Source of the DNA: a virus
Reading direction: 5' to 3' (one strand)
IMG/VR virus record: IMGVR_UViG_3300047554_000379
Span: 1 to 22,778 of that record
Length of the DNA stretch: 22,778 nucleotides
Within the stretch, counting starts at the first letter, position 1. Every line of letters starts with the position of its first letter. Below are positions 3,328-4,735 of the stretch, one piece after another. Below the pieces are notes generated by a model, which saw only the letters and a program-made list of their open reading frames with translations, did no database searches and was not told the DNA's origin. The translations under genes were made by a program, and so were the position numbers.

Positions 3328-3517
3328 TGTTGGTGGCTCCCATAAAGCAGGGTGAGGGCGCAATTGAACGAAATACCCCACGGGGCTAATCCGTTTCCAC
3401 CAACACGGCTGAGGATTAATTATCTGGAGTCGAACCAGACTTATCCATAAAGGAATCGAACCTTCAACTTCGTCAAGTGGGTCAACCAGACCTCTTAATC
3501 CCCATGCGTCTTGGTGT
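3328..3517 (-). promoter_or_regulatory. Structured 5' leader of the terS-terL-portal transcript
   Basis: Downstream of the minus-strand promoter the leader can fold into two closed domains. Domain I: GGGGATTAA (3503-3495) pairs with TTAATCCTC (3419-3411) and encloses four hairpins: GGTC/GACC, ACTT/AAGT, GAAGG-TTCGATT-CCTTT (3465-3449) and TCTGG-TTCGACT-CCAGA (3439-3423). The last two look exactly like tRNA T-arms (five-base stem, TTCGAYT loop), but no full cloverleaf forms. Domain II: TGTTGGTGG (3405-3397) pairs with CCACCAACA (3336-3328). No convincing coding frame lies here. It may regulate terminase expression, act in packaging, or overlap the cos/pac site. The pairing is seen in sequence; function is unknown. 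Confidence 0.5.
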
Positions 3518-3523
3518 AACGCA

Positions 3524-3552
3524 ATCATAAGTCACATTGTGTTGTTTAACAA
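3524..3552 (-). promoter_or_regulatory. Promoter for terS operon (minus strand)
   Basis: On the minus strand TTGTTA (3552-3547) and TATGAT (3529-3524) are separated by 17 bases, a good sigma-70 fit (4/6 and 5/6). Transcription would begin near 3517 and read through the structured leader into terS. Its -35 overlaps the -35 of the opposite promoter and the inverted repeat TTGTTTAACAA (3542-3552), a likely operator that could control both directions. Confidence 0.55.
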
Positions 3553-3573
3553 TAGGGAAAACCCTGATACAAT
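3545..3573 (+). promoter_or_regulatory. Extended -10 promoter for the 3580-3670 RNA
   Basis: TGATACAAT (3565-3573) is an extended -10 element (TGn followed by TACAAT, 5/6). TTTAAC (3545-3550), 17 bases upstream, is a weak -35, as is common with extended -10 promoters. The spacer holds AGGG-AAAA-CCCT (3554-3565) and the -35 lies in the perfect repeat TTGTTTAACAA, both possible operators. Expected start of transcription is about 3580, one base before the first hairpin of the RNA. Confidence 0.55.
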
Positions 3574-3579
3574 GCAGTC

Positions 3580-3670
3580 ATATCTGTTCGCGCCAGATAA
3601 AGCCTTTTAGAAGTGGTACAGCCTCTGGTATTCAGAGGGCGCGACTGTATCACCCCTAAAGGGCTTTTTT
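3580..3670 (+). ncRNA. Candidate small structured RNA with pseudoknot and intrinsic terminator
   Basis: About 91 bases with a promoter before it and a terminator as its 3' end. Hairpin 1 is TATCTG (3581-3586)/CAGATA (3594-3599) with a seven-base loop TTCGCGC. A long three-part hairpin follows: AGCCTTTTA (3601-3609)/TAAAGGGCT (3657-3665), GTGGTACAG (3613-3621)/CTGTATCAC (3645-3653) and CCTCTG (3622-3627)/CAGAGG (3633-3638), then six T. The only bulge on the 3' side of the inner stems, GCGCGA (3639-3644), is the exact complement of loop bases TCGCGC (3588-3593), giving a six-base pseudoknot. I do not recognise a known class: the strand order does not fit the pistol ribozyme, and no riboswitch signature is evident. 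It could be a free sRNA or an attenuator in front of the HNH gene, whose ATG follows the T run at once. Confidence 0.6.
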
Positions 3671-3671
3671 C

Positions 3672-4124
3672 ATGGGAATTTATCTTTACAGCCAAAAGGC
3701 AATTGACGCTTACAAGAAGAAACGCAAGCGGGACGCAGCCAAGGCAAAGAAGACCCTAGAGAAGCTCGCAACCTCCAGCCCAGTCCTTCAGGCGCTTATC
3801 AAAAAAAAAGCCTCCCAAATGGCATGGGCGATGCAAAAGAAGTCTCCCAAGAAGAAAACCTTTGAGCCGCCACCAGCCTATGTGTTTGGCATGGGAAAGG
3901 ACTTTTACAAGACCCGTGAGTGGCGGGAAGTCCGTTACAGGGCATTGGTAAAGTTTGGCAAGAAATGTCAGTGTTGTGGAGAGACAGGCGGATACATTCA
4001 TGTTGACCACATTCAACCAAGATCAAGGAAACCAGAGTTAGAATTGAACATAGAGAACTTGCAGGTGTTATGCGAGGCGTGTAACATTGGCAAGTCAAAT
4101 AAAGACACAACAGATTGGCGTTAA
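3672..4124 (+). CDS. HNH endonuclease
   Basis: 150 residues. The N-terminal 60 are lysine-rich and basic (YKKKRKRDAAKAKK), probably for DNA contact. The HNH core lies at about 95-150: zinc ligands C99/C102 (CQCC) and C134/C137 (CEAC), catalytic pair D112-H113 (HVDHIQPRS), then NLQVLCEACN with N138. HNH proteins beside terminase genes in many cos phages assist TerL in cutting the packaging site, which is the role I favour; a free-standing homing nuclease is the alternative. The ATG follows the T run of an intrinsic terminator by one base and has no clear ribosome site, so expression probably depends on readthrough from the RNA promoter upstream. Confidence 0.85.
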   Translation: MGIYLYSQKAIDAYKKKRKRDAAKAKKTLEKLATSSPVLQALIKKKASQMAWAMQKKSPKKKTFEPPPAYVFGMGKDFYKTREWREVRYRALVKFGKKCQCCGETGGYIHVDHIQPRSRKPELELNIENLQVLCEACNIGKSNKDTTDWR

Positions 4125-4132
4125 GAAGTAAA

Positions 4133-4333
4133 GGGAAGTCGGGTGTCGCAGTCGCACCCTCAAAGGCATGAGATATACGGTTGCCCAACAATACCCGAAA
4201 GGGAAGTAAGGGCGGTGGCTATAAAGCGGTACGCACCGAAAGGTAATACGACCTGAAGCCCCACAGAGTCTGCTTAACTCTGTACGCTATACGACTCCCA
4301 CCCAAGTCTAGGGATTCTCAAGACCATGAGAAT
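4133..4333 (+). ncRNA. Foldable RNA domain with GNRA tetraloops, downstream of HNH gene
   Basis: There is no gene here. GGGAAGTCG (4133-4141) pairs with CGACTCCC (4292-4299) through eight pairs with one bulged A and closes a branched domain. Inside are GGGTG/CACCC (4141-4145/4155-4159), TTGCCC/GGGCGG (4181-4186/4210-4215) enclosing CCC-GAAA-GGG (4194-4203), ACC-GAAA-GGT (4235-4244), and a perfect seven-base stem ACAGAGT/ACTCTGT (4263-4283) with a seven-base loop. A separate stem ATTCTCA/TGAGAAT (4314-4333) follows. TACGAC occurs three times. Repeated GAAA tetraloops and a GC-rich closing stem suggest a real structured RNA. It starts eight bases after the HNH stop, so it could be a 3' UTR element, a ribozyme remnant, or part of the packaging site. 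No group I core was recognised. Confidence 0.4.
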
Positions 4334-4530
4334 GCTACGACTGCCTTGCTACGCCTATACATTTCCCACCACCATACTCTTCCATCACCAGCCAGAGCTA
4401 GACAGAAAAAAGCTAGTTTTGCTTTTCGTGTGGAGGAGAGGCACCCACAAAAATCTCTCCACCACCACACCCCCTCCCCCCCATAGTAAGCACCAACTAA
4501 CCAAGTGTTGTATCGGCGCAACAGTAGGGA
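4334..4530 (+). other. Noncoding stretch with hairpins and a C-rich tract
   Basis: I see no credible gene. It holds a strong hairpin, GGAGAG (4435-4440)/CTCTCC (4455-4460) extended by GTGTGG (4428-4433)/CCACAC (4465-4470); a C-rich tract C5-T-C7 (4470-4482), which is a G-run on the minus strand; and TGTTG/CAACA (4506-4510/4519-4523). The upper strand is nearly free of G over long parts. Function is unknown. Confidence 0.4.
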
Positions 4531-4641: not shown

Positions 4642-4735
4642 GTTTCACTAATGAAACGTAAGTATTCATAGTTACATGATGTACTAATAAGTTACAAGGG
4701 TTAACCCTATTAGGGTTTTTAGTACCCTATATAAA
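4642..4735 (+). promoter_or_regulatory. Further inverted repeats and possible promoter before the clamp operon
   Basis: In order: GTTTCA-CTAA-TGAAAC (4642-4657); an imperfect TAGTTACA...TGTACTA around 4669-4686 that resembles the upstream operators; the palindrome GGGTTAACCC (4698-4707); AACCCTA-T-TAGGGTT (4703-4717) followed by TTT, which could also act as a weak terminator; and TATATAAA (4728-4735) as the best -10 candidate, without a convincing -35. The alternation of GGGTT and AACCC allows competing hairpins. Together these look like the control region of the 4825-6884 operon, but the promoter itself is uncertain. Confidence 0.4.

Follow-up and report, generated by a model that had tools for sequence, protein, structure and literature searches.

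A pseudoknotted small RNA of conserved shape ahead of exchangeable genes in lake and Vibrio phages

The RNA1 locus in the window

The window (the whole stretch of DNA analysed, 22,778 b) is an uncultivated phage contig from IMG/VR. Portal, TerL and a TerS-like ORF occupy the minus strand up to position 3343, and the other genes form a lambda-like set that includes a replication initiator, an annealing protein, an exonuclease and lysis genes. The plus strand of the intergenic region to the right of the TerS-like ORF (the terS slot) carries a predicted small RNA, RNA1, followed by an HNH gene and a large structured RNA, RNA2. The features are as follows:

3546..3573, plus strand: predicted sigma70-type promoter, with -35 TTAACA at 3546-3551 (or TTTAAC, with a spacing of 17)
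3565-3573, plus strand: putative extended -10 element TGATACAAT, read as TG-A-TACAAT (TACAAT at 3568-3573)
3554..3565, no strand assigned: operator-like palindrome AGGGAAAACCCT in the promoter spacer, AGGG-N4-CCCT
3580..3670, plus strand: RNA1, about 91 nt from the predicted TSS to U6, delimited by fold, promoter, homologues and covariance model
3581-3586 with 3594-3599, plus strand: P1 hairpin, TATCTG/CAGATA, with a 7-nt loop at 3587-3593; double changes at 5 of 6 pairs
3588..3593, plus strand: 5' strand of the pseudoknot, TCGCGC, part of the P1 loop; paired in all 64 sequences
3600..3666, plus strand: long hairpin, closed by stem A (3600-3610/3656-3666, 11 pairs)
3613-3621/3645-3653, plus strand: stem B of the long hairpin, 9 pairs
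3622-3627/3633-3638, plus strand: stem C of the long hairpin, 6 pairs
3639..3644, plus strand: 3' strand of the pseudoknot, GCGCGA, a bulge between stem C and stem B and the exact complement of 3588-3593
3656..3670, plus strand: intrinsic-terminator-like 3' end, predicted from the 3' strand of stem A and T6 (3665-3670)
3658..3663, plus strand: AAAGGG, the Shine-Dalgarno sequence for HNH, sequestered by stem A
3672..4124, plus strand: HNH endonuclease of 150 aa (Pfam HNH, 44 bits), with its ATG one base past the U run
4125..4352, plus strand: RNA2, a large structured RNA found together with HNH (z -5.9 relative to column shuffles; without a match in Rfam)
4697-4708: second operator-like palindrome AGGGTTAACCCT, AGGG-N4-CCCT, promoter-proximal

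The RNA1 strand has a minimum free energy (MFE) of -43.1 kcal/mol (z -5.0), which none of 200 shuffled sequences equalled, and stem A alone has an energy of -12.5 kcal/mol. For any given 6-nt bulge, the probability that its complement occurs within a 7-nt loop is about 5e-4. An earlier note on this DNA had described the P1 hairpin, its loop and the complementary GCGCGA bulge, together with an extended -10 element ending at 3573 and the T6 run, all of which we found as described. Its stem lengths of 9, 9 and 6 pairs were right for the last two stems, but the first has 11 pairs. RNA1 had no match in Rfam 15 at either gathering or relaxed thresholds, in line with the note's view that it belongs to no known class, and searches of the available literature found no description of it. 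Tandem repeats were sought at 3580-3670, and none was found.

The signals flanking the fold are conserved in position. Upstream sequence was long enough in 73 homologues; in these, the -35 and -10 elements are 16-17 nt apart (18 in one), and the distance from the -10 element to P1 is 5-7 nt in 67. A U run of 5-7 is present in every homologue, at least five U also being demanded by the search pattern, and the next ATG lies 0-2 nt past it in all 76 terS slot homologues. When the full leader was folded, the Shine-Dalgarno sequence was unpaired with a probability of at most 0.004. As judged from these sequence signals, RNA1 probably has its own promoter and terminator, and the earlier note's description of a small pseudoknotted RNA so equipped is supported by both the fold and the conserved signals. 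The AGGG-N4-CCCT palindrome was matched four times (two sites, both strands) against an expectation of 0.05. No conserved alternative fold that would occupy stem A, as the antiterminator of a riboswitch or two-state attenuator would, was found in truncated alignments, nor did inspection by eye identify a conserved full -10 element of an internal promoter that would free the Shine-Dalgarno sequence.

Other elements surround the slot. Upstream of it, on the terS strand, one relative (L076, 911-1018) has a tRNA-like element that scores 44 bits with the Rfam tRNA model and has an enlarged middle; the window (3329-3404, minus strand) retains no more than a 76-nt shape that has an acceptor-like stem of 7 bp. 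On the right side of the slot, a C-rich block is conserved (4416-4500 in the window, and in relatives); in some relatives (e.g., L089), repeats like TAAGCACTAACTAAC come after it. The block and repeats are possibly a packaging or replication site.

Covariation among homologues

Homologues were collected in two ways. When loci retrieved through HNH and TerL similarity were searched by blastn with the region, 53 proved homologous, of which 42 are distinct; a pattern scan in which the P1 hairpin and the pseudoknot loop were left unspecified gave 104 stretches in viral contigs. The alignment A1 comprises 64 distinct sequences; the search pattern partly dictates its U run, GGR and RACTR but leaves the letters of P1 and of the pseudoknot loop free. 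Across A1, 99.2% of cells in the full structure pair, falling to 38-50% when the partners are slid by 1-3 columns. The pseudoknot helix is kept in all 64 sequences, with 100% of its cells paired, no G-U pairs, and changes on both sides at five of the six pairs. Its loop/bulge combinations include UCGCGC/GCGCGA, UCGUGC/GCACGA, UCGCGU/ACGCGA, UCUAGC/GCUAGA, UCGCAC/GUGCGA, UUGCGC/GCGCAA, UCUCGC/GCGAGA and UCUUGC/GCAAGA.

Folding without pseudoknots yielded the same rod, with loop and bulge free, as the MFE structure of 61 of the 64 sequences. Furthermore, a covariance model built without the pseudoknot recovered three diverged members (L040, L041 and L286) that carry GUCGUGU/ACACGAC. No unpaired position is invariant, and an active or binding site therefore cannot be assigned. 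The pseudoknot was broken in a single case, L160, where a deletion (or assembly) junction falls inside P1: the promoter and loop are gone, and the remainder of RNA1 and the ORF are retained. Apart from this deletion chimera, our search for homologues that break the loop-bulge pairing, by which the earlier note would have been refuted, turned up no intact example.

A blastn search of phages with RNA1 gave no match. A pattern scan of 85,000 bacterial genomes returned two matches, both of which we rejected as false, having neither P1 nor a matching promoter or ORF.

Downstream genes, large RNAs and the wider class

Two alternative cassettes are found downstream of RNA1 in the terS slot: the HNH gene with RNA2, or P74, a helical, basic protein of 63-74 aa, with a different large RNA, RNA3. 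A count over overlapping loci gave 201 copies of RNA1, 94 of them ahead of HNH and 106 ahead of P74. Identical alleles were found before both genes in 7 of 49 cases, and RNA1 is therefore not tailored to one protein. There was no detectable support for HNH and P74 being homologues, their common basic motif being too short to count, and the predicted P74 fold (AlphaFold2 pLDDT 78, a helical hairpin) had no match in the PDB. In type C phages, the RNA1 promoter is kept, RNA1 and the ORF are absent, and a third large RNA, RNA4, begins there. L046 and L047, near-identical relatives with 99% identical TerL, are among the phages that keep the promoter but lack both RNA1 and the ORF, and in L042 the HNH gene and RNA2 lie within an operon without RNA1.

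By the column-shuffle control, RNA2 (z -5.9) and RNA3 (z -6.5) are strongly structured and RNA4 more weakly so (z -2.6). RNA2, of about 225 nt, directly follows the HNH stop codon and is often better conserved than the gene; its 39 distinct copies had no match in Rfam or in phages. RNA3 (in L076, L107, L098 and L179, downstream of P74) has a long-range closing stem, GCUACCCGA/UCGGGUAGC, and, by eye, what may be its own promoter, with the -35 element in the last P74 codons and the -10 element at the stop codon. RNA4 (CGGGGGCAUGACCC...GGUUGAGCCGACC), seen in L047, L049, L055 and L121, starts directly at the RNA1 promoter.

The RNA1 shape also occurs outside the terS slot. We searched with a pseudoknot-aware descriptor comprising P1, stems A, B and C, the pseudoknot and the U run, with a score cut-off of 40. 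It gave 61 distinct matches in 2.28 Mb of loci, compared to four in 56.9 Mb of a first-order Markov control, though the matches lean towards the shape of the first-seen members, from which the descriptor was written. Seventeen of the 61 differ from the window's type. The descriptor brought to light a second locus in lake phages (L223, L194, L214, L127 and L189), unrelated in sequence to RNA1, that carries GUGGAAA/UUUCCAC or GUAGCGG/CCGCUAC. It too has a promoter and a U run, after which comes a large RNA and, in L127, an HNH gene beyond that. A scan for this second-locus type gave 75 stretches, 61 of them distinct and 59 with U5 or more, and pseudoknot-blind folding produced a rod with free loop and bulge in 38 of 48 sequences. 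The promoter and terminator signals are conserved in both types. Some phages have both loci, with different pseudoknot letters (L223; L039/L127).

The closest HNH genes from cultured phages lie in Vibrio phages. Up to 315 Vibrio phage records share a common promoter, directly followed by an RNA with the topology of RNA1 and unrelated letters. The loop/bulge pairs are GUGGUGA/UCACCAC (L292, L307), GUCGUGU/ACACGAC (L304-L306), GUCGAGU/ACUCGAC (L297), GUGAGAU/AUCUCAC (L298) and UGAGACC/GGUCUCA (L309-L311, L313, L317), joined by UGAUAC/GUAUCA and UGAAGG/CCUUCA in V. breoganii phages (by eye from folds). The descriptor matched in 14 of 26 cultured-phage loci, all of them Vibrio, and cultured members include Vibrio phages 1.016.O, 1.178.O, 1.276.O, 2.095.A and jenny 12G5. 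The order in Vibrio phages is the RNA, its U run, about 300 nt of another RNA, and then a variable gene, which can encode an HNH protein, a methylase, Orf172, a phosphoesterase or a hypothetical protein. Both here and at the second lake-phage locus, what comes after the class RNA is another stretch of RNA, about 200-330 nt long, and not a start codon.

These Vibrio relatives were reached only via the HNH neighbourhood and structure. On five cultured loci, the RNA1 covariance model scored at noise level, and yet the 7-bit score at L292 belongs to a real relative; sequence-based models therefore miss most of the class. Pairwise identities among class members are inflated by free gaps and were set aside. 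Across the class there are about 18 distinct loop/bulge pairs, and its members combine pairing of the P1 loop with the bulge between C and B, a nested A/B/C hairpin and a U run. The Vibrio relatives and the large RNAs had no match in Rfam.

Several neighbouring cases differ from this arrangement. In L312 and L314-L316 (Vibrio), a different large RNA (UUCUUGACGGGACGG...) sits right behind the shared promoter, mirroring the lake type C phages; the gene after it encodes a D12 methyltransferase, another methyltransferase or an HNH protein. In Vibrio phage 1.242.O (L308, 580-870), an RNA with UGGAAG/CUUCCA that adjoins a tRNA-Arg gene and a large RNA is a probable class member. Xanthomonas phage Kintu (L295, 1800-2190) has a long terminator-like hairpin before an HNH gene, without the P1 pseudoknot, and probably also a structured RNA of about 300 nt before that gene.

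Proposed role and comparison with known systems

We regard RNA1 as the window's representative of a new phage small-RNA class, a discrete, shape-conserved product that heads an exchangeable cassette and also acts as a cis throttle, and we assign this reading a probability of about one half. The strong sigma70-type promoter would start transcription within a few nucleotides of P1, and the P1 loop would then pair with the bulge of 6-8 nt on the 3' side of the three-part long hairpin to give a compact rod. Termination at the U run would release a discrete RNA of 90-125 nt whose two ends lie in helices. Because shape is conserved rather than letters, we infer that the RNA itself is the working product and keeps a single fold, most probably in order to bind either a protein or the cassette's large companion RNA. 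That the shape is retained while no unpaired letters are conserved speaks against a ribozyme or metabolite aptamer and for a single compact, nuclease-hardy form. In the terS slot, the 3' stem would in addition be a cis brake, the terminator limiting read-through and the stem hiding the Shine-Dalgarno sequence of the next gene, so that the RNA is expected in large excess over the protein. Since no conserved competing fold was found, this brake is expected to be constitutive and not a two-state switch. The computations show the fold, the covarying pseudoknot, the spacing of promoter, U run and ATG, the exchange of genes behind the RNA and its return in cultured phages; transcription, termination, repression and any partner in trans are inferred from these.

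RNA1 might instead be a cis leader only, an attenuator that throttles the next gene by termination and Shine-Dalgarno occlusion and is perhaps relieved by a protein or another signal. The ATG just past the U run and the buried Shine-Dalgarno sequence are consistent with this, as are the constant presence of one of two ORFs right behind RNA1 in the terS slot, the joint absence of RNA1 and ORF behind the shared promoter of type C phages, the HNH-RNA2 operon of L042 without RNA1, and the occurrence of identical RNA1 ahead of two unrelated ORFs. However, stem A is stable enough to form without the pseudoknot, which would then be superfluous, no conserved antiterminator fold was seen in the truncated alignments, and there is no start codon behind the Vibrio and second-locus RNAs. 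We consider this explanation unlikely. The earlier note's suggestion of an attenuator controlling the HNH gene is thus plausible as a cis role in the window, but repression of HNH is not the general purpose of the class, because one allele can precede two unrelated proteins and the RNA elsewhere lacks an adjacent start codon. A regulatory or structural sRNA fits best among the three functions that the note offered.

The layout also recalls type III toxin-antitoxin systems, in which a promoter-proximal pseudoknotted RNA and an intrinsic terminator precede a protein gene expressed via read-through (PMC5086642). By its signals, RNA1 resembles the RNAs of these systems (ToxI/AbiQ/CptI/TenpI) in having one promoter, RNA, terminator and protein gene, and an RNA-protein pair of this type, with RNA1 in excess neutralising or guiding the protein behind it, would match the promoter, structured RNA, intrinsic terminator and protein gene described for ToxIN and for AbiF/RCd22 (PMC5086642, PMC12373285). 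Unlike type III RNAs, members of the RNA1 class are single-copy, 90-125 nt long, and have a pseudoknot between a hairpin loop and a distant bulge, and the genes behind RNA1 are exchangeable and not ToxN-like, encoding an HNH nuclease or an unmatched helical protein of 74 aa. An RNA-protein pair is also at odds with one allele serving two unrelated proteins, with the absence of a toxin fold, and with a next gene that in Vibrio phages can be HNH, methylase, Orf172 or phosphoesterase. Because the repeats and the toxin are missing, we compare RNA1 with type III systems and do not file it among them; such a pair seems improbable. RCd22, the ncRNA associated with AbiF in a prophage of C. difficile, has a promoter and a terminator and is described as lowering expression of the next gene by termination; it has two repeated stem-loop motifs and an Abi_2 protein, and that account, in the parts drawn on here, reports no loop-bulge pseudoknot of RNA1 topology (PMC12373285).

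The omega-RNA of IscB (HEARO) is likewise structured and, as with RNA1 in the window, an HNH protein is encoded immediately behind it. The HNH protein of the window, however, lacks RuvC and PLMP and scores 40 bits with the NCBIfam IscB model against a cutoff of 175, and RNA1 is shorter than omega-RNA, occurs also before non-HNH genes and has no Rfam match. The pistol ribozyme has a 5' hairpin loop that forms a 6-bp pseudoknot with a strand beside two stacked stems; this strand lies on the 5' side, between P2 and P3, and the catalytic core is conserved. RNA1 has a similar 5' loop pseudoknot, but its partner strand is on the 3' side, and it has neither a conserved unpaired core nor an Rfam match. 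ColE1-like RNA I/RNA II logic was rejected, as RNA1 does not overlap any large RNA in antisense.

The put RNA of phage HK022, like RNA1, is structured and lies at the 5' end of a phage transcript. Cis antitermination of this type, with RNA1 modifying RNA polymerase, could account for a promoter-proximal position that always begins at the predicted TSS and for a conserved shape ahead of varying cargo, but RNA1 ends in a conserved terminator-like U run whereas put RNAs are not known to end in a terminator and consist of two simple hairpins, and we hold out little prospect for it. A packaging-linked RNA similar to phi29 pRNA, the remaining suggestion of the earlier note, is highly improbable: RNA1 adjoins terS, and HNH genes of this kind occur beside terminases, but phages with 99% identical TerL (L046/L047) lack RNA1, the class recurs away from terminase genes, and no match to pRNA was found in Rfam.

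The preferred reading, of a shape-conserved product with a cis throttle, can be extended. A widespread class RNA, a second large RNA and a swappable gene (HNH, methylase or helical protein) might together constitute a mobile two-RNA cassette with trans effects on the host or on competing phages, a proposal that we advance tentatively and at less than even odds.

RNA1 is a real and previously undescribed kind of small folded phage RNA. Its one fold has been kept through near-complete sequence turnover, at at least three genome positions and in both lake and marine phages, and the class heads exchangeable genes and large RNAs, the latter likewise absent from Rfam. The noncoding regions of phages have seldom been examined for RNA classes; the presence of members in cultured Vibrio phages makes their expression, structure and function directly testable.
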